A stretch of DNA of 36,448 nt from contig JAIYDB010000119.1 of NCBI GenBank assembly GCA_027487695.1, forward strand, positions 1 to 36,448. Reading direction: 5' to 3'. This document shows, one piece after another, positions 10,343 through 32,817 of the stretch. Positions within the stretch are counted from its first letter, which is position 1, and each line of letters opens with the position of its first letter. The stretch is from Cytophagaceae bacterium (GTDB taxonomy: Bacteria > Bacteroidota > Bacteroidia > Cytophagales > Flexibacteraceae). The translations under genes and the position numbers were made by a program. Under the pieces are notes generated by a model. The model made no database searches. It saw only the letters and a program-made list of their open reading frames with translations, and was not told where the DNA came from.

Positions 10343-12445
10343 TTAGCTAATCTTTCTCCATTCACTTTGTTTACGCATTTTTTGGGTATGCATCCAATGT
10401 TGCATAGGTAAGTGTTCTGGTAGTTCTAGTTTAGGGTCGGCCGCAATGAGTTCTTTGGCGGCTTGCCTGCTTAGTTCTACTATTTTGGCATCGGCACTTA
10501 AATCGGTCAGGTGTAAATCAACCACGCCGCTTTGTTGGGTTCCTGCTAAATCGCCAGGACCGCGGAGGCGTAAATCTACATCTGCTATTTCAAAGCCATC
10601 TGTGGTGCGTTCCATTGTTTCCAGACGTACGAAGGATTCTTTGCTCAATTTAACACCTGTTACAAGCAAGCAATAGCTTTGGTCAGCCCCTCTACCTACT
10701 CTACCTCTGAGCTGGTGCAATTGCGAAAGACCAAAACGTTCGGCACTTTCAATCACCATAACGGAAGCATTGGGTACGTTAACTCCCACCTCAATTACAG
10801 TAGTGGCTACCATAATTTGGGCTTTCCCTTCAATGAAAAGTTGCATTTGGGCATCGCGTTCTTCTTTTGGCATTTTGCCGTGTACCATTACAGTGAGGTA
10901 CTTTTCAGCTGGAAATGCTTCAGAAATGCGTTGGAAACCTTCTTGCAAGTTCTCAAAGTCTATTTTCTCTGATTCTTCAATCAAGGGAAAAACTACATAT
11001 ACCTGCCTTCCAAGTGCAATTTCCTTCTTCATAAAATCGAAGATGCGCTCTCTGGAGGTGTCGTATATGTGGCGGGTAGTGATTGGCTTACGTCCAGGAG
11101 GAAGTTCATCAATAATACTCACATCCAAATCGCCATAGAGGGTCATTGCCAAGGTTCTTGGAATTGGCGTGGCGGTCATTACCAAAACGTGGGGTGGACA
11201 TTGGCGTCCCTTTGCCCAAAGTTTTGCCCGTTGGGCAACGCCAAAGCGGTGTTGCTCGTCAATAATGCAAAGCGCTAGGTTATTGAAGATAACGGTATCG
11301 GTAAGTAAGGCGTGGGTACCAATAATCAATTTTAGTTCTCCGCTTTTAAGTGAAGCTAAAATTTGGTCACGTTCTTTTTTCTTGGTGTTGCCTGTGAGTT
11401 TAGCACAAGGGATGCCACATAGTGCTGCTAGTTCACCCAAACCTACAGCGTGCTGTTCGGTAAGGATTTCTGTGGGAGCCATTAATGCAGCTTGGTAGCC
11501 ATTAGAAATAGCCATAAGTGCGGCTACAAAAGCCACTATGGTTTTGCCTGAACCTACATCGCCTTGGAGCAAGCGGTTCATTTGCTGACCCGTATTTAAA
11601 TCGTGGTGGATTTCCTTGAGTACCCGTTTTTGCGCACCAGTCAATTGAAACTTCAAGTGGTTCAAATAAAACTCGTGTACTAAATCGGTCTTTGGGCAAA
11701 GCAAACCAGGGTTGGCTTCCTTTTGGTGGTAGTTGGTTTGCAGTAAACCTATTTGCAGAAAGAAAAGCTCTTCAAATTTGATGCGGAACTTTGCTTTTTC
11801 TAGCAGTTCCTGGCTTTTAGGGAAGTGCACATTGAGCAATGCTACTTTCCTTGAAACCATACGGTAGTTATCAATAATGCTTTCAGGCAGGTTTTCTTCT
11901 AAGTAGGGATATACTTGTTTGAAAAGCAGCTGCATAACCGATTCAATGGCTTTGCGATCTAGCTTCTTTTTACGCAAGCCTTCAGTTAAGCTGTAAACAG
12001 GATTTAGAAACTTAGGTGGCGCATAAGTTTGGGTAAAGACATCCAATTCAGGATGGGCTATGGAATACTTGCCTCCATATCGGGCTACCTTACCATAAGC
12101 CACGTATTCTAAGCCAACGATTAGCTTTTTTTCTAGCCAAGGTTGCGGTTTAAACCATACCAATTCAATCGTAGCAGTGCTATCTTGAATAATGGCGACT
12201 AGACGCCTATTGAAGCCTGTGCCTACCAATTCAGGCTTTTGAATTAGAGTGCCCTTTACTTGTAAGGTATCTCCTTCGGAGGCTTTGGCAATAGGTTCAA
12301 AATGCTGTCTGTTTTCGTACCTATAAGGAAAGAAGTATAGTAAATCGGCCCAAGTATTTAATGCTAATTCACCTGCCAATGCCTGTGCCTTTTGCGGGGT
12401 AAGTCCCGGTAATTGGCTTAAAGGATTGAGCAGGTATTGATGCAT
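10343..12445 (-). CDS. recG: ATP-dependent DNA helicase RecG
   Basis: RecG remodels stalled forks and branched DNA, including Holliday junctions. The 700-residue protein has the N-terminal wedge/OB domain (about 60-160, with VKGTLIQKPELVG), Walker A GDVGSGKT, the DEQH box in IIDEQHRFGV, TATPIPRTLAMTLYGD (motif III), and the C-terminal RecG signature GLSQLHQLRGRVGRG with GFEIADVDLRLRGPGDLAGTQQSG. The length is normal. It may be transcribed from a box at 12551-12558 with a leader of about 100 bases. It is divergent from the small lipoprotein gene at 12600. Confidence 0.97.
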   Translation of the reverse strand: MHQYLLNPLSQLPGLTPQKAQALAGELALNTWADLLYFFPYRYENRQHFEPIAKASEGDTLQVKGTLIQKPELVGTGFNRRLVAIIQDSTATIELVWFKPQPWLEKKLIVGLEYVAYGKVARYGGKYSIAHPELDVFTQTYAPPKFLNPVYSLTEGLRKKKLDRKAIESVMQLLFKQVYPYLEENLPESIIDNYRMVSRKVALLNVHFPKSQELLEKAKFRIKFEELFFLQIGLLQTNYHQKEANPGLLCPKTDLVHEFYLNHLKFQLTGAQKRVLKEIHHDLNTGQQMNRLLQGDVGSGKTIVAFVAALMAISNGYQAALMAPTEILTEQHAVGLGELAALCGIPCAKLTGNTKKKERDQILASLKSGELKLIIGTHALLTDTVIFNNLALCIIDEQHRFGVAQRAKLWAKGRQCPPHVLVMTATPIPRTLAMTLYGDLDVSIIDELPPGRKPITTRHIYDTSRERIFDFMKKEIALGRQVYVVFPLIEESEKIDFENLQEGFQRISEAFPAEKYLTVMVHGKMPKEERDAQMQLFIEGKAQIMVATTVIEVGVNVPNASVMVIESAERFGLSQLHQLRGRVGRGADQSYCLLVTGVKLSKESFVRLETMERTTDGFEIADVDLRLRGPGDLAGTQQSGVVDLHLTDLSADAKIVELSRQAAKELIAADPKLELPEHLPMQHWMHTQKMRKQSEWRKIS

Positions 12446-12550
12446 TTTCTATGGGAATTTTGGCTTTTTTCTAGCAATTGTTTTCCTGCTTTTGCCTGTT
12501 GCAGAAGGTAAACCCAGGTGCTTATTTCTTGTAATTCTACAGAAGAAAAC

Positions 12551-12584
12551 CAAAAATAGGGGCATTGTATTTAATTTGCAGCAA
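12551..12584 (-). promoter_or_regulatory. Candidate recG promoter
   Basis: TATTTTTG (minus strand, 12551-12558) matches TAnnTTTG exactly; an upstream TTG (12582-12584) is 23 bases away, longer than usual. The 154-base gap 12446-12599 otherwise shows no feature I can name. Confidence 0.3.
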
Positions 12585-12599
12585 CTTATTAAGAATTAG

Positions 12600-13079
12600 A
12601 TGCTGGAAGGTGCCTATAAGGCTGTGTTGAAGAATGGTGTTTTGGGTGTATTTACCCTGGCAATGTTGCTTGTTTTTACTACTGGTTGTAGTAGAAAGGT
12701 GTATAATGCTAATCCTTCTTTAATAGGTGAAAGTCAGATAGATGACTTGCAAATCGACGAAACTCCTACAAGACATATTGATGCCTACGGCTATTTGAAT
12801 TTGCCACCAGATTCGCCTTTGCCTATCGTGATTTTTACTTACAAGCCTAACGATTATTTAGTGGGTAGCCCTTGTGCGAGGGAGTATATGTTAGAACGTG
12901 GCTACCTGTATATTAGCAAAGACGACCATCCTAACCGCGATATTGACGAGGTAAAGATGTGGTTCATCATTAAACGTGCTGAGTGGAAAGTGTTTTGGCG
13001 CAATGGCCCAGGATGGAAAAAACGCCTGAGAAAACACTTGAAACAATGCAAGGCTTCATCAGGCGATTTTGTAGGCTAA
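12600..13079 (+). CDS. Small lipoprotein, unknown function
   Basis: The 159-residue protein begins with a basic and hydrophobic lead ending in LVFTTGC, a lipobox with the predicted lipidated cysteine at residue 30. The mature part has a Tyr/Pro-rich centre (FTYKPNDYLVGSPCAREYML) and a very basic C-terminal third (WKVFWRNGPGWKKRLRKHLKQC). I do not recognise the family. The gene stands alone between recG, divergent, and purB, which converges on it with an 11-base gap. Confidence 0.75.
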   Translation: MLEGAYKAVLKNGVLGVFTLAMLLVFTTGCSRKVYNANPSLIGESQIDDLQIDETPTRHIDAYGYLNLPPDSPLPIVIFTYKPNDYLVGSPCAREYMLERGYLYISKDDHPNRDIDEVKMWFIIKRAEWKVFWRNGPGWKKRLRKHLKQCKASSGDFVG

Positions 13080-13090
13080 GTAATTATTTT

Positions 13091-14425
13091 TTACTCAGGT
13101 AACTGACCTAAGTAGTTATCAGGCTTAATGTTATGCAATACTGCCTTGGTAGTTTCATTGATGTTTAGGCTTTCAATGAAGGCAGTAATATCGTCCATTG
13201 TAATTTCAGACTTACCTCTAGTAAGTGCCTTTAAAGCCTCATATGGTTGTGGGTAGCCTATTGCACGCAATACCGTTTGGATGCCTTCTGCAACTACGGC
13301 AGCATTGGTTTCTAAATCTTTATGTAGTTGGGCATTATTTAATTCTAACTTACCTAATCCCTTTAAAACTGACTGTAACGCAATTATAGTATGCGACATT
13401 GGAACACCTAAGTTGCGTAAAACGGTACTATCGGTAAGGTCACGTTGTAGGCGACTGATAGGAAGTTTCTCTGCAAAGTGTTGGAACAAAGCATTAGCTA
13501 CACCAAGGTTACCTTCAGCATTTTCAAAGTCGATTGGGTTAACTTTGTGTGGCATTGCGCTGCTGCCTACTTCGCCTTCTTTGGTTTTTTGCTTGAAGTA
13601 ATTGATAGAGATATAGGTCCATATATCCCTGCACATATCAATTAAGATGGTATTGATACGACTCAAATTATGGGCCCAAGCCGCTAAATTATCGTAATGC
13701 TCAATTTGAGTAGTGTACTTACTTCTACTCAAATGCAATACGTTTTCAACAAATTGGTTGCCGAAATCGTGCCATTGGTGGTCTGGAAAAGCGACGTTAT
13801 GCGCATTGAAATTACCCGTTGCTCCACCAAACTTTGCCGAATAAGGAACTTGTTCTAGGTGAGCAATTTGGTTTTCTAAACGCTCAATAAAAACAAATAT
13901 CTCCTTACCTAAACGAGTTGGCGATGCTGGCTGTCCGTGAGTGCGTGCAAGCATAGGTACTTCTAACCATTGCTCCGCTAAAATTTCAAGCTGGTCTAGC
14001 ACCTGCTGAAGCATTGGCAAAAGCACTTCTTCAGTAGCCTCTTTCATAGAAAGAGGAATGGCAGTATTATTAATATCTTGAGAAGTAAGCCCAAAGTGTA
14101 CCCACTCGGTATTTAACTTCATAGGCAGGCTTTGGATACGTTCTTTCAAGAAGTATTCTAGAGCCTTAATATCGTGGTTGGTGGTAGCTTCTAATTCTTT
14201 AACACGGAAACAATCGTCTAAAGAAAAGCCACGGTGAATTTCTCTTAGCAATTCAGGATCAGAAACTGGCGTGCCAATAGCTTCTGAAAACGCAATGAGG
14301 TATTCGATTTCAACAAATAGGCGGTATTTGAAAAGCGCATACTCTGAGAAATAATCAGACAAAGCAGCGGTAGTTTTATGGTAACGCCCATCAACAGGGC
14401 TAACGGCCAAAAGCGGATGCAACAT
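13091..14425 (-). CDS. purB: Adenylosuccinate lyase
   Basis: PurB cleaves SAICAR to AICAR and adenylosuccinate to AMP in purine synthesis. The 444-residue protein starts LLAVSPVDGRYHKTTAALSD, as in E. coli-type PurB; conserved pieces are EWVHFGLTSQDINNTA (109-122), the catalytic histidine H163 in ARTHGQPASPT, and the signature loop GSSAMPHKVNPIDFE from 287 with the catalytic serine. The length is close to the 456-residue E. coli enzyme. It is monocistronic by position. Its promoter (14446-14476) has a short palindrome over the -7 box. Confidence 0.97.
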   Translation of the reverse strand: MLHPLLAVSPVDGRYHKTTAALSDYFSEYALFKYRLFVEIEYLIAFSEAIGTPVSDPELLREIHRGFSLDDCFRVKELEATTNHDIKALEYFLKERIQSLPMKLNTEWVHFGLTSQDINNTAIPLSMKEATEEVLLPMLQQVLDQLEILAEQWLEVPMLARTHGQPASPTRLGKEIFVFIERLENQIAHLEQVPYSAKFGGATGNFNAHNVAFPDHQWHDFGNQFVENVLHLSRSKYTTQIEHYDNLAAWAHNLSRINTILIDMCRDIWTYISINYFKQKTKEGEVGSSAMPHKVNPIDFENAEGNLGVANALFQHFAEKLPISRLQRDLTDSTVLRNLGVPMSHTIIALQSVLKGLGKLELNNAQLHKDLETNAAVVAEGIQTVLRAIGYPQPYEALKALTRGKSEITMDDITAFIESLNINETTKAVLHNIKPDNYLGQLPE

Positions 14426-21152: not shown

Positions 21153-22346
21153 TTAAACTTGTTTAAGATTATTTTTCTTATGTTCTCTTACCAATTCCAT
21201 AAGCGCAGCCAAACCAATTACCTGGCTTTGTTCATCTAGTGGGAAGGCATCGTTAGTAGCGGTAACTACAAATGCTTTATTGGGCTTAATATCTTTTAAG
21301 GCCTCATAGTATCCTTTAGAAAGCTTAGGTTTTAGGCTGCGCTTAATTTCAACAGTCCATATTTCCTGATTGGGAAAGGTAATTACCAAGTCAATTTCTG
21401 CTCCTCCACCTGTTCGGTAATAACAAAGTGTTGTATGCCATTGTACAACCGCAGCAATGTTTTCAATTACAAAGCCTTCCCAGCTATTGCCAAGTATATG
21501 GTGTGATAGTAGTTGGTCTAAACTCTCTAATTGAAGTAAGGCGTGCACAATACCACTATCTCTGATATACACCTTTGGCGATTTTACCAATCGTTTGTTG
21601 ATGTTAGCTTCATAAGGCAGCAGTTTCCTTACCAAAAGTAAATCGGCTAAGATATCAATGTAGCGATTAGCAGTTTGGGTGCTTAACTCTAAGTTTCTGC
21701 CAAGGTCTGAACTATTTAAAATACTCCCCTGTTGGTAAGCAAGCATAGTCCACAACTTTTGGAGTTTTTGGGCAGGTAGTTTAAAGCCAAAAGCAGCTAC
21801 ATCTCTTTCAAGGTAGGTTCTGATAAAGTCCTGCCTTATTTTAAGGCTAAGTTTTGGCGTACGTGCCAAGTAACTTTGTGGAAACCCACCTCTTAACCAA
21901 AGTAGTTGCAGGCTTTGGTCATTGTTTGGTATTTCAGTTGCCAGTAATGGCGACATTTCAATGTATGCAATTCTACCAGCAAGGCTTTCGCCTGACTGGT
22001 TAATAAGATCTAGCGATGCAGAACCTAAAAGCAAAAACCTGCCTATACCCTTGCCTTTCCTTCTGCCTCGGTCAATTACACCCCTCAATTCTGGGAATAA
22101 GCTTGGCATACGGTGCACTTCATCAATTATTACAAGCCTATCTTCTACCGATTCAAAATAAAGACTTGGGTTGGTTAGCTTTAAGCGGTCGGCTTCGCTT
22201 TCCATATCTAAGTATATAGCACCTACCTCATCGCCAATATCTTGGGCAATGGTAGTTTTTCCTACTTGGCGTGGACCTATAATGCATACCGCAGCTTGAT
22301 AGGTGAGCGCTTCTTGAAGGTCGGCTATTACTTTTCTACTAATCAT
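21153..22346 (-). CDS. AAA-type ATPase with C-terminal DUF4143-like nuclease-fold domain
   Basis: The 397-residue protein has Walker A GPRQVGKT (24-31), Walker B LVIIDEVHRMP (D75, E76) and LLLGSASLDLI, the pattern of the ATPase family carrying DUF4143. After a winged-helix-like middle (about 200-260, with LSTQTANRYIDILADLLLV) comes a PD-(D/E)xK-like segment: GNSWEGFVIENI, YYRTGGGAEIDLV and WTVEIKRSLK, with candidate catalytic E, D and ExK residues. The role of the family is unknown; these genes are frequent in accessory DNA and often vary between strains. Two related palindromes are found upstream, one over its start codon. It is probably transferred or dispensable, but I see no transposase beside it. 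Confidence 0.88.
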   Translation of the reverse strand: MISRKVIADLQEALTYQAAVCIIGPRQVGKTTIAQDIGDEVGAIYLDMESEADRLKLTNPSLYFESVEDRLVIIDEVHRMPSLFPELRGVIDRGRRKGKGIGRFLLLGSASLDLINQSGESLAGRIAYIEMSPLLATEIPNNDQSLQLLWLRGGFPQSYLARTPKLSLKIRQDFIRTYLERDVAAFGFKLPAQKLQKLWTMLAYQQGSILNSSDLGRNLELSTQTANRYIDILADLLLVRKLLPYEANINKRLVKSPKVYIRDSGIVHALLQLESLDQLLSHHILGNSWEGFVIENIAAVVQWHTTLCYYRTGGGAEIDLVITFPNQEIWTVEIKRSLKPKLSKGYYEALKDIKPNKAFVVTATNDAFPLDEQSQVIGLAALMELVREHKKNNLKQV

Positions 22347-29394: not shown

Positions 29395-29421
29395 AAAGCC
29401 ACGTGAAAATCACGTGGCTTT
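29395..29421 (+). terminator. Rho-independent terminator of eno
   Basis: A 12-bp perfect stem, AAAGCCACGTGA (29395-29406) with 29410-29421, loop AAA, followed by a T-run (TTTTTTG). It isolates eno from the downstream small membrane protein genes. Confidence 0.93.
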
Positions 29422-29466: not shown

Positions 29467-29474
29467 TATATTTG
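29467..29474 (+). promoter_or_regulatory. -7 box of the four-gene membrane protein cluster
   Basis: TATATTTG is an exact TAnnTTTG match, 27 bases before the first ATG. No good -33 TTTG at 19-21 bases upstream is seen. The enolase terminator lies just upstream, so the cluster needs its own promoter. Confidence 0.45.
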
Positions 29475-29501: not shown

Positions 29502-29786
29502 ATGAAAACTTGGTATATGAATTTACAAGCAAAGCAGTTTAGGTTAATCTATACTACTCTATTGATCTTGCCTATCTTAACAAGTTTGGCGTTTTCGGTC
29601 TTAGAGATTGGTAAATCTTTTAGGAGTATTTACCCAGCTTTTATGGTTATACCTTTAATTCTAATAATGGTTAGACGTAATACCCACCCTTCTGAATTTC
29701 CAAAGATGAAGTGGACTTCTTCAATGATTGTGGCTGCTGGAATATTGATTATATTCTATGGTGTCAAAATAATGAATAGGTACTAA
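29502..29786 (+). CDS. Small membrane protein, tandem family member 1 of 4
   Basis: The 94-residue protein has an N-terminal motif MKTWYMNLQAKQF (1-13), a hydrophobic helix (about 15-36), a second (about 42-57), a basic signature RRNTHPSEFPKMKW (58-71), and a third helix (about 72-91). By the positive-inside rule the N-terminus and the signature should face the cytosol. It is closest to member 4: about 44 of 94 positions are identical by hand alignment, and both are 94 long. I do not recognise the family and assign no function. It is the first gene after a promoter-like box; member 2 follows after 15 bases. Confidence 0.82.
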   Translation: MKTWYMNLQAKQFRLIYTTLLILPILTSLAFSVLEIGKSFRSIYPAFMVIPLILIMVRRNTHPSEFPKMKWTSSMIVAAGILIIFYGVKIMNRY

Positions 29787-29801
29787 ACCGAGCATTTCTC
29801 T

Positions 29802-30095
29802 ATGAAAACTTGGTTCATGAATTTAACAACAAAGCAGTATTGGGACTCCGTTAAATATGGAGGAGTAATATTTTTTCTTGTTGTATTAGTTCTTTTTAAA
29901 TACAACTATATCCCATCAGTCCACTATGTTTTTGGCGCATTTCTATTAGTTAGTTTTTTAAGGGTTTTAAGACTTGTTACCCATCCTAATGAGTATCCTA
30001 AAAATGCAGTTTTGTTTTTCTTGTTCAGGTTAGTGATTTGGATAAGCTTATTTTGGTTTTTTTGCTATGATTATCTATCCAATTACTTAAATTGA
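29802..30095 (+). CDS. Small membrane protein, tandem family member 2 of 4
   Basis: The 97-residue protein starts MKTWFMNLTTKQYW, then has two hydrophobic stretches (about 18-34 and 40-55), the central LVTHPNEYPKNA, and a third, very aromatic helix (FFLFRLVIWISLFWFF). The sequence between the shared motifs is closer to member 3 than to members 1 and 4 (TTKQYW, FLRVLR/FFKFLR). No known family is recognised. The next gene's ATG follows 14 bases after its stop. Confidence 0.8.
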   Translation: MKTWFMNLTTKQYWDSVKYGGVIFFLVVLVLFKYNYIPSVHYVFGAFLLVSFLRVLRLVTHPNEYPKNAVLFFLFRLVIWISLFWFFCYDYLSNYLN

Positions 30096-30109
30096 CAAAA
30101 GCTATTATT

Positions 30110-30424
30110 ATGATTAATTGGTATATGAACATAACGACAAAGCAATATTGGAGAACCTTCCAAGTTGGAAGTGTGGTACTTGCTTTGGGTAGTTTGGTGC
30201 TGGTATTTTTGAATTATATATCGTTAATAGAGTTTTTGTTAATTGCGTTCTTGCCAAGGACATTCTTTAAATTTTTAAGGTTTAAAACCCACAGACACGA
30301 ATTTCCTAAAGAAGCTTCATTTAGAACCGCATTTATATATGTAATCATTGCATTAGTACTTTGGATTGTTTTTGAAATTGTCTTCCCTAATACTATTAGT
30401 TTTAAACCCAGCTTAAATCTATGA
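30110..30424 (+). CDS. Small membrane protein, tandem family member 3 of 4
   Basis: I choose the ATG at 30110 because MINWYMNITTKQYW then aligns with the starts of the paralogs; an upstream TTG at 30092 in the same frame would add six residues without homology. The 104-residue protein has hydrophobic helices at about 18-34 and 39-54, the signature RFKTHRHEFPKEA, a third helix (FIYVIIALVLWIVFEIVF) and a slightly longer C-terminus. Its TGA overlaps the ATG of member 4 (ATGA), so translation is coupled. Function unknown. Confidence 0.8.
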   Translation: MINWYMNITTKQYWRTFQVGSVVLALGSLVLVFLNYISLIEFLLIAFLPRTFFKFLRFKTHRHEFPKEASFRTAFIYVIIALVLWIVFEIVFPNTISFKPSLNL

Positions 30425-30705
30425 AAACTTGGTACATGAATTTAACAACCAAACAGTTCAGGACCATAACTGGATTAATGTTGATATTGCCCTTTTACAC
30501 TAATTTTATGTTATCTATATTGGAGATTAAGAATCCTTACAAAGATTACATCTTAGGTATTGTATTACTGGCATTTATTTTAATTAAAATCAGACGAAGT
30601 ACTCACCCTTCTGAATTCCCAAAAGTAAAGTGGTCGGCAAGTTTGATTATAGCTGCTGTAATACTTCTATTGTACTTTGGTTCAATTTTGGTAAGTAAAT
30701 TTTAA
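30421..30705 (+). CDS. Small membrane protein, tandem family member 4 of 4
   Basis: The 94-residue protein repeats the plan of member 1: MKTWYMNLTTKQFR, two helices, RRSTHPSEFPKVKW, and a last helix (SLIIAAVILLLYFGSIL). The first 14 bases of both genes are identical. The cluster order is therefore A-B-B'-A' by similarity. After the gene there is a 138-base gap with no clear terminator before the secreted cargo gene, so read-through to that gene cannot be excluded. No known domain is recognised. Confidence 0.82.
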   Translation: MKTWYMNLTTKQFRTITGLMLILPFYTNFMLSILEIKNPYKDYILGIVLLAFILIKIRRSTHPSEFPKVKWSASLIIAAVILLLYFGSILVSKF

Positions 30706-30775
30706 AAGGTGCACCAAGGTGGTTTTTTCTGGTTTGCTATCACATTACCGAAGCTTTTTTAAGTTATTTATGTTT

Positions 30776-30843: not shown

Positions 30844-32817
30844 ATGAAAAAATACTTTACTCTGTTCAGGGTGCTGTTACTGGTGCTATTTTGTAGCATA
30901 AGCAGCAATTTAATAGCCCAAAGTTTTAGGACCGCCTGCCCATATAATGTGGCTTCTTGGCCGTACCCTAATAGTAGCGATTGGATGGGATGCCCGCCTG
31001 CAATAATTCTTGGAACAGGTAGGCCACCTTGTCCCGCAAGTTATGCACATAAGCCTTTTCAAGATTGTTGTGGGGCTATTCCTTTGTACAACAATTACAT
31101 AACTTTTGGTAGGCAGAATCCCAATCCATTATTTAACTCTAGAATCTGTGGGCAAGGTTGCAACCAAACCGAATTGCCACCTGTAGGAAATTCTTGTTTT
31201 GGAGGTCTTGAAAAACAGACAACTTGGTTTACTTTTGAAATCAAGTCATTAATAGGTGGTATTGATACAATTGGAGCCCCAGCTGGAAAGTTACGGTTTA
31301 AAATTTTTCCTTGCGATGGACGTCCAAATCCACCAGACTGTGATCAGGTAGAATTTAGTGTGCCCTGTAACTGTGACACTATTGATCCATTAAGTGCTCT
31401 AAATTGTAATGATTATGGGAATAATGATATTGGTACTGTAGATTACGATTGGATTCTCTATCGTGTAAATAATTTTAATTCTACCAGATCGGCTTGCAAT
31501 GCAATTTCAGCAGGTACTAGTACAGTAGCTTGCTGTAATTGGAGCCAATTGAGAGGTCCAACAGGTATGTTTGAACAACCAGATGGATCTGGAAATTCTT
31601 GTAATGTCGGTGCTCAAGGGCGTCGTTTTAATTCTCCAATTTCCGTAAATGTTGGAGATCGATTTATCCTTTTAGTAGATGCTTTTACTCCTCAAAATTT
31701 AAAAAGTTACAAAATTGATTTCCGAGGAGGATGTGCTAATGTAGGCAGGGATGGGCTTACTGCATTAGTTGGACCTGTAGAATACCCAAATGAAAGAATT
31801 CCTACATCACAGTTCCAACAATTATTGAGTAGAACCGATTCTTGTGTAATTGATTCTATTTCGTTTAGGTTTACCCAACCGCAGCGAAATTCAACAATGA
31901 CTGCAAGTAATTATAAGCTGTTTCGATTTAATGATAACGGTTCATCCGATAGCAATTTCGTAATACATGAAGTATTGCCTTTAAACGATGCTATTACAGC
32001 AACCGATTGGAAAGTTAATTTCGATTCTTTAGGTCTTTCTCGTGGTAATTATGCTCTTCGGTTTATGGATACCGTAACTAGCTATTTTCAAACCAAAGTA
32101 GTTTCTGATACCCTTTATTTTAAAGTCGGAGGAGGAATACCGCCAGCAATTCGGGTAGCACAACCTTTTAATTCTTGCCTCTTACATCCTACTATTTTAA
32201 CGGTTTCAGATACTGCGGGATATGTTTTCCTTTGGAGTACTGGCGATACAACAGCTCGTATAACTGTTCAAGAGCCAAATCAATATTCAGTTACTTCAAC
32301 CTTTAATGGTGCTTGTAGGCAAACAACAACTGCAAGTATATTTCTGCGTCAACCAAGCCTGCGAAACTGTCCGATTTCAATTTCCCACAATCCTAGATTT
32401 GATAGTTTAACAGCCTCATTGCCTGCACTTCGCTATCAATGGGAGTTAGATAATAATTTAATTAATCCATCTTCGAAAAGAATTCCAATTACAGCTAATG
32501 GATCTTACCGAGTACGTGCAATAAACAGTAGAGATACTGGTATTTGGAGTGCACCTTTTGTGGTAACAAGCAATAAGCTCGCAGTAAAATCTGGTGGTTT
32601 AGAAGTTTATCCGAATCCAAGTAAAGGCATTGTAAACATTCAAGTCCCTACGAGTTTTCAAACTATTGAACTTACCGATAAATTGGGAAAGGTATTGCTA
32701 ACCAAGCCAATTCAAAACACAACTACCATCAATGTGCAAGGGTATCCTAAGGGGATTTATATCATTAGAGCTAAGGGTGGGGGACAAGCCTTAAGCACTC
32801 AATTAGTGGTGGAATAA
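30844..32817 (+). CDS. Cysteine-rich T9SS-secreted protein with C-terminal sorting domain
   Basis: The 657-residue protein starts with a signal peptide (LFRVLLLVLFCSISSNLIAQ). Residues about 60-295 resemble the beta-sandwich module of large Bacteroidota surface proteins: CCGAIPL, KQTTWFTFEI, GKLRFKIFPCDG, DYDWILYRVNN and VGDRFILLVDAF, with an unusual number of cysteines, likely disulfides. A middle part (about 300-580) has Ig-like beta patterns (VSDTAGYVFLWSTGDTTARI). The last 72 residues (586-657) are a type A T9SS sorting domain with VYPNPSKG, a KLGKVLL strand and YPKGIYIIRA. It should leave the cell through the T9SS and be anchored or released at the surface; the ligand is unknown. Confidence 0.88.
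   Translation: MKKYFTLFRVLLLVLFCSISSNLIAQSFRTACPYNVASWPYPNSSDWMGCPPAIILGTGRPPCPASYAHKPFQDCCGAIPLYNNYITFGRQNPNPLFNSRICGQGCNQTELPPVGNSCFGGLEKQTTWFTFEIKSLIGGIDTIGAPAGKLRFKIFPCDGRPNPPDCDQVEFSVPCNCDTIDPLSALNCNDYGNNDIGTVDYDWILYRVNNFNSTRSACNAISAGTSTVACCNWSQLRGPTGMFEQPDGSGNSCNVGAQGRRFNSPISVNVGDRFILLVDAFTPQNLKSYKIDFRGGCANVGRDGLTALVGPVEYPNERIPTSQFQQLLSRTDSCVIDSISFRFTQPQRNSTMTASNYKLFRFNDNGSSDSNFVIHEVLPLNDAITATDWKVNFDSLGLSRGNYALRFMDTVTSYFQTKVVSDTLYFKVGGGIPPAIRVAQPFNSCLLHPTILTVSDTAGYVFLWSTGDTTARITVQEPNQYSVTSTFNGACRQTTTASIFLRQPSLRNCPISISHNPRFDSLTASLPALRYQWELDNNLINPSSKRIPITANGSYRVRAINSRDTGIWSAPFVVTSNKLAVKSGGLEVYPNPSKGIVNIQVPTSFQTIELTDKLGKVLLTKPIQNTTTINVQGYPKGIYIIRAKGGGQALSTQLVVE

Follow-up and report, generated by a model that had tools for sequence, protein, structure and literature searches.

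Four adjacent, co-directional genes in the 36,448-nt stretch of Cytophagaceae DNA analysed here (the window) form a tandemly expanded family of predicted membrane proteins of about 100 amino acids, and a second array of distant relatives, which is new here, is present in the same genome. In the libraries searched the family matches no known family, and within the limits of the searches it appears lineage-restricted. The most likely single named mechanism is an immunity-like array (orphan homogeneous polyimmunity), to which we assign a probability of about one in three.

Four paralogous genes behind enolase

A sequence-only reading of the region had described four neighbouring paralogs of 94, 97, 104 and 94 residues, and this description is borne out by the open reading frames, by motifs common to all four and by shuffling of the sequences. 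The genes of this array (array 1) are the following:

29502..29786 (+): g1, 94 aa, small three-helix membrane protein, A type
29802..30095 (+): g2, 97 aa, B type
30110..30424 (+): g3, 104 aa, B type
30421..30705 (+): g4, 94 aa, A type, with an ATGA overlap with g3

The spacing consists of gaps of 15 and 14 nt and then a 4-nt overlap, from which a single transcript is likely; the ATGA overlap of g3 and g4, which had been pointed out before, is indeed found at 30421-30424. The N-terminal segment W(Y/F)MN(L/I)xxKQ(F/Y) and the loop motif TH(P/R)xE(F/Y)PK are each present in 4/4 proteins. The four-way alignment has 12 invariant columns, and no invariant polar residue was seen within the helices when it was inspected by eye.

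For all six pairs, none of 1000 composition shuffles matched the observed score. Pairwise identity is 47% for g1 and g4, 37% for g2 and g3, 37% for g2 and g4, and 26-32% for the remaining pairs. A bootstrap tree groups g2 with g3 at 84 and separates g1 and g4 by a branch at 83, and a second tree method does not resolve the four genes. The shuffles and the tree uphold the proposal of repeated duplication. The proposed A-B-B'-A' order is moderately supported, being likely but not firm: the identity of g1 and g4 and the bootstrap values speak for it, whereas the equal identity of the 2-4 and 2-3 pairs and the second tree speak against it.

The model of g4 (AlphaFold2, mean pLDDT 78.7) has three helices, and hydropathy predicts the same number in g1, g2 and g3. 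The earlier statement that each protein has three helices therefore stands for g4 by its model and for the others by hydropathy, with its weak point in helix 2 of g3 (0.66). In g1 and g4 the side with the helix 2-3 loop has a charge of +4, while the outer loop has +1; in array 2 the values are +4 to +7 against +1, and in g2 and g3 the asymmetry is less clear. From these positive charges we predict that the N-terminus and the helix 2-3 loop face the cytosol. The chain would then run from an inner N-terminus through helix 1, a short outer loop, helix 2 and a cytosolic elbow with the pattern R..(T)(H/x)P.E(F/Y) to helix 3. The location of the motifs on the cytosolic side, as first proposed, agrees with this prediction, clearly for g1 and g4 and less so for g2 and g3.

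Conservation in array 1 is concentrated in these cytosolic-side segments, where 56/78 (72%) and 44/66 (67%) of the residue pairs between paralogs are identical, compared with 23/120 (19%) in helix 1, 24/139 (17%) in the outer loop with helix 2, and 24/150 (16%) in helix 3 with the C-terminus. The array looks like a common docking face inside combined with membrane and outer parts that have diversified. Since faster divergence by hydrophobic exchange is common in membrane helices, the contrast is not specific to immunity. Among all seven proteins of the two arrays only the R and E of the loop are invariant, besides the start M; this pattern speaks more for a motif with a structural or docking role than for an active site built on His.

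Coding constraint and 5' repeats

When g1 and g4 are compared codon by codon, 35, 27 and 50 of 94 differ at positions 1, 2 and 3, respectively (chi-square p 0.026), and this third-position excess suggests coding constraint, though near saturation. The substitution rates (dN and dS) are 0.43 and 1.56 for g1/g4 by NG86, or 0.56 and 0.68 by YN00, and 0.60 and 2.78 for g2/g3 by NG86; they point to constraint rather than positive selection among the array 1 paralogs, also near saturation. The third-position G+C of the array (0.31-0.36) is similar to the mean of 0.364 (sd 0.043) for 30 genes of the window, so we ascribe the low G+C of array 1 to its hydrophobic composition. A foreign origin of array 1 by base composition was considered and is unsupported on the same grounds.

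A direct repeat of 55 nt spans every start codon from g1 to g4, with spacings of 300, 308 and 311, and two of its copies are particularly close:

29784..29838 (+): 55-nt direct repeat, spanning the g2 start codon
30403..30457 (+): copy of the 55-nt repeat at g4, 85% identical to the g2 copy, untranslated leader included

The g2 copy is 65% and 64% identical to the copies at g1 and g3. In the leaders, g2 and g4 share 15/24 nt (reached in 4/20000 shuffles, as the best of six pairs), and the five other pairs share 7 to 9. The C-terminal residues of g3 are read from sequence that resembles the untranslated leader of g2, and this part is not in register with the TAA stop codon of g1, which makes the ATGA overlap of g3 and g4 look secondary.

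Codons for the same amino acid are identical in 18/23 cases at the 5' end and in 32/69 over the rest (Fisher p 0.009) for the pairs among g1, g2 and g4, which are not independent of each other; the pairs with g3 were excluded since they lack the effect (5/17 at the 5' end). Recombination or gene conversion in g4, with a 5' end like g2 and the rest like g1, was rejected, as the maximum chi-square method finds no breakpoint (795/2000 permutations were as high).

Surroundings of array 1

The array is flanked by the enolase terminator on one side and, on the other, by a gene (30844-32817) whose product has a sorting domain for type IX secretion. Two upstream features are relevant to its boundary:

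29395..29421 (+): enolase intrinsic terminator, upstream boundary of the array, with a 12-pair stem, 6 G-C pairs and a T run
29467..29474 (+): possible Bacteroidota -7 box, TATATTTG, a pattern match 27 nt before the g1 start codon

It had been claimed that the cluster has its own -7 box behind the enolase terminator. The terminator is strong (-18.2 kcal/mol, z -4.9) and the box sequence is present, but TAnnTTTG, the Bacteroidota -7 box consensus, has 50 occurrences in the window where 49.3 are expected, and at this chance density the box says little. Downstream of g4 a strong terminator was not found, and the stretch 30690-30740 folds no better than 18/200 shuffles. The window gave no Rfam match.

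The protein encoded directly after array 1, at 30844-32817 (+), has 657 aa, with a Por_Secre_tail (T9SS sorting domain) and a cysteine-containing N-terminal half; no other Pfam domain was found over cut-off in it. Elsewhere in the window, at 21153-22346 (-), an ATPase with AAA_14 and DUF4143 is encoded, apparently alone among unrelated genes.

Comparison with known families

None of the seven proteins of both arrays has a Pfam match over cut-off, and the same is true in NCBIfam for the four proteins of array 1, to which that search was confined; all hits in both libraries fall far short of the cut-offs. PADLOC returned nothing at E 1 for the seven, and PHROGs nothing for six of them, with P0006 reaching only E 0.029 and 0.081. 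The PDB sequence search with a seven-row profile also gave nothing. Comparison of folds, for g4 against PDB and viral models and for an array 2 protein against PDB, yielded no match with E < 1, and a second look with VIA-align gave Z values of at most 7.1 over 58 residues, within the range of unrelated helical models, so that the fold comparisons exclude no family.

DUF4199 (PF13858), a Pfam membrane family, has a sub-threshold likeness to a single member in either array, P0003 (E 0.22, 12.4 bits) and P0008 (E 0.039, 14.8 bits), and membership in it was rejected against the curated cut-off of 32.3 bits. The family had been called unrecognised, which agrees with the lack of an acceptable match in Pfam, NCBIfam, PHROGs, PADLOC and the PDB sequences. 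Literature searches found no description of such a family in the portions of text available.

A second array beside rpsB

The genome from which the window comes (2.89 Mb in 129 contigs, 96% complete) contains on another contig, C23, three small ORFs in tandem (105, 99 and about 101 aa), which are convergent with rpsB (named by eye). They have the layout of array 1: F(I/L)xxL(S/T) stands close to the N-terminus, and of the three helices the second and third are joined by a loop with R..(x)PEEF. This array 2 was found by two queries that reached different members, and the reverse search recovers array 1. The genome-wide E-values linking the arrays are 0.009 and 0.0016; single values of this kind are unconvincing alone, because background hits occur in other genomes, and the link between the arrays rests on the ranking against membrane controls, on hhalign and on the matching tandem layout.

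With the array 1 profile, the array 2 proteins score 19.2, 18.2 and 9.6 bits, compared with at most 7.2 in 561 membrane controls. With the array 2 profile, g4 (21.5 bits) and g1 (17.2 bits) lie above all 562 controls (maximum 11.6; the controls consist of 69 small ORFs and of overlapping windows cut from 88 ORFs, and are not 562 independent proteins), but g2 and g3 come only in 23rd and 25th place. The motif occurs in 7/7 array proteins and 0/562 controls, having been picked after inspection of the proteins. With hhalign the two profiles align over 58 columns, which extend from helix 1 into the loop, at E 9.7e-6 and a probability of 83. The two predicted models, one per array, have a short N-terminal helix and three long helices in the same order; both were built from the same seven rows and are hence not independent.

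Each array forms its own clade, with 98% bootstrap. This separation suggests that the family expanded locally at two places in one genome by multiplication of copies within each, or that it was homogenised at each. No homologous neighbour common to both sites was found.

Behind rpsB (L135:6466-7305 onward) comes array 2, in the opposite orientation, and not tsf; among ten genomes of the same family, L156 is the only one in which tsf was recognised (by eye) as the next gene after rpsB. An ORF resembling an HPt protein (named by eye) adjoins array 2. Further along contig C23, L135:11775-12131 and 12210-12572 (-) encode tandem four-helix Phage_holin_4_2 paralogs (PF04020, E 3.8e-28 and 1.2e-28), which adjoin an ORF6N-domain protein at 12593-13114.

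Distribution among relatives

Among the best 80 of at least 594 enolase matches, the closest with a name belong to Pontibacter, Hymenobacter and Spirosoma and reach at most 79% identity, which places the host in the Bacteroidota and probably in the Cytophagales. Our sample of the family consisted of 11 genomes, own genome included, with none other from the same genus. In the ten others, profile searches did not recognise the array genes, and nothing similar was recognised either at the eno site (where contig L125 stops 131 nt past the gene) or at the rpsB site (L157 ends about 1.7 kb after rpsB). A profile search at E 1 of 3327 ORFs from 100 loci also gave nothing similar. As to conservation in relatives, on which the earlier reading depends, the findings point in both directions: the genes are unrecognised in ten genomes of the family, but this genome has the family in two places, and the excess of third-position differences between g1 and g4 suggests constraint.

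For the wider searches, A1 and A2 denote the profiles of array 1 and array 2. Not counting the own genome, hits were obtained in 1/58 of the nearest genomes at E 0.01 (A1) and 3/58 at E 0.1 (A2). The order samples gave hits at 0.01 in 8/290 genomes (A3) and 6/389 (A2), the class sample in 11/394 at 0.01 (A1), and the phylum sample in 2/394 at 0.001 (A3). The order, class and phylum samples overlap, and scoring was limited to the best 12 to 17 candidates per genome. In the own genome the A2 search of 389 genomes failed to pick up g4 and g1, which searches of all candidates recovered; these large searches can therefore overlook relatives that are no closer than one array is to the other. Convincing relatives were found neither in the 58 nearest genomes nor in the samples of 290 to 394 genomes from the order, class and phylum. 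The genome contig collection scanned with A1, the viral contigs scanned with A1 and A2, and tblastn searches of plasmids (P0004, P0003) and of phages (P0004 only) revealed no relatives.

Seven places with outside hits were inspected (L007, L136, L160, L163, L165, L023 and L172), with ORFs scored around four of them, and the remaining outside hits were assessed solely from the length of the frame and its internal stops. By eye, the hits at L007 and L136 are long unrelated membrane proteins, that at L023 is a 196-aa multi-helix protein, and those at L163 and L172 are frames antisense to longer ORFs; these were rejected, as was L165, a single membrane ORF of 124 aa with 19.0 bits with A1, which we take to be VanZ-like. 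The candidate at L160/L174 belongs to the same class and another family:

L174:3173-3496 (-): isolated membrane ORF of 107 aa with KCNTHRSEY

It scores 24.0 bits with A1, above the best array 2 protein (19.2), and only 3.4 with A2, and it has neither the N-terminal motif nor a tandem copy. We regard it as an unconfirmed candidate relative of the family.

Possible functions of the arrays

A common inner face with diversified membrane and outer parts, in co-directional arrays of one lineage, resembles a parallel set of immunity or recognition proteins. In the immunity reading, the array members would be expressed together and work in parallel in the inner membrane, with each of them giving protection from another variant of the membrane- or periplasm-acting toxins of competitors. 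The conserved cytosolic face would serve as a structural clamp or common docking site, and the diverged membrane and outer face as the recognition surface. To the observed anatomy of the array this reading adds co-transcription, the predicted topology and, above all, the putative protective role. More tentatively, with the odds clearly against it, the proteins may constitute an undescribed small three-helix class that expands in place at separate loci as an integral-membrane polyimmunity or recognition array, with a fixed cytosolic clamp and freely diversifying membrane and outer parts. The clamp proposed as part of that whole reading, and equally doubtful, would be the N-terminal WYMNLTTKQ-like segment plus the R..THPxEFPK elbow.

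Three described systems come closest to the arrays. SUKH, Imm6, Imm11, Imm28, Imm33, Imm36 and Imm41 are soluble domains. These are the types named, in the available text, for polyimmunity loci, of which the homogeneous ones are tandem paralogs of one immunity type that vary between strains (PMC3482391). Array 1 is like them in its tandem, co-directional short paralogs of one type, and the Bacteroidota are among the hosts of such loci, but its proteins are predicted to be integral membrane proteins without a match to an immunity model, no toxin was recognised, and there are two loci here, whereas most organisms with polyimmunity loci carry only one, as far as that text goes (PMC3482391). The rAID arrays of orphan immunity genes in Bacteroidales are likewise composed of co-oriented short genes in Bacteroidota, and are defined, in the part of the paper at hand, by a tyrosine recombinase and conserved intergenic motifs (PMC12247911); here no recombinase was recognised (by eye) and only two of the four leaders are alike. 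BmiA, a three-helix immunity protein, and PmiA, with four helices, belong to colicin M-like bacteriocins, and according to the sections available PmiA has very low sequence conservation, orphan copies and a periplasm-exposed motif (PMC5277000). The array proteins resemble both as small multi-helix inner-membrane proteins, and PmiA also in low conservation and orphan copies, but their motif is predicted to be cytosolic and no bacteriocin gene was recognised alongside.

Several results weaken the immunity reading. There is no match to an immunity family, and neither a toxin nor a recombinase was recognised by eye near the arrays (among the window ORFs and in 18 kb around array 2). The two sites have no common neighbour, and a T6SS sheath gave no PF05943 match, with a model that matches 1/14 control genomes and may miss Bacteroidota-type sheaths. 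The paralogs of array 1 point to constraint more than to positive selection, and two loci are present instead of the usual one. For these reasons we do not file the array under polyimmunity, rAID or BmiA, and keep the immunity reading at about one in three.

About as likely is an orphan, lineage-specific membrane family with another housekeeping or envelope role, whose copies would have arisen by unequal crossing-over and been kept by dosage or drift. The lack of convincing relatives outside this genome and of anything recognised at either site in ten same-family genomes would fit it, as would the common 5' repeats and a low G+C explained by hydrophobic composition; two short segments, however, are sharply conserved despite about 17% identity elsewhere, which points to a retained specific function. 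Because it is a catch-all without a mechanism, we did not choose it as the best explanation.

Two further possibilities are less likely than either of these. The paralogs could be subunits joined through their conserved cytosolic segments into a hetero-oligomeric channel, transporter or scaffold, as the earlier reading had also considered. The close spacing, with its probable single transcript, and the coexistence of A and B types are consistent with such a complex, but array 2 consists of three members of its own clade and not of one-to-one counterparts of g1-g4, and no invariant polar residue lies inside the helices (by eye), so that we consider it unlikely; that no structural match with E < 1 was found also counts against it, though this excludes nothing. 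An array of membrane sensors or regulators, whose cytosolic face would dock one common signalling partner while the outer face meets different signals, is quite improbable: it would draw on the same contrast in conservation and on the HPt-like ORF beside array 2, but no signalling gene was recognised by eye beside array 1, and no neighbour is common to both sites.

If the immunity reading is true, the idea of polyimmunity would extend to small integral membrane proteins that were missed by the defence library searched, and such arrays in Bacteroidota could be overlooked. If it is false, the two arrays are still a clear orphan membrane family, expanded twice in one genome, which the R..THPxEFPK motif makes searchable.
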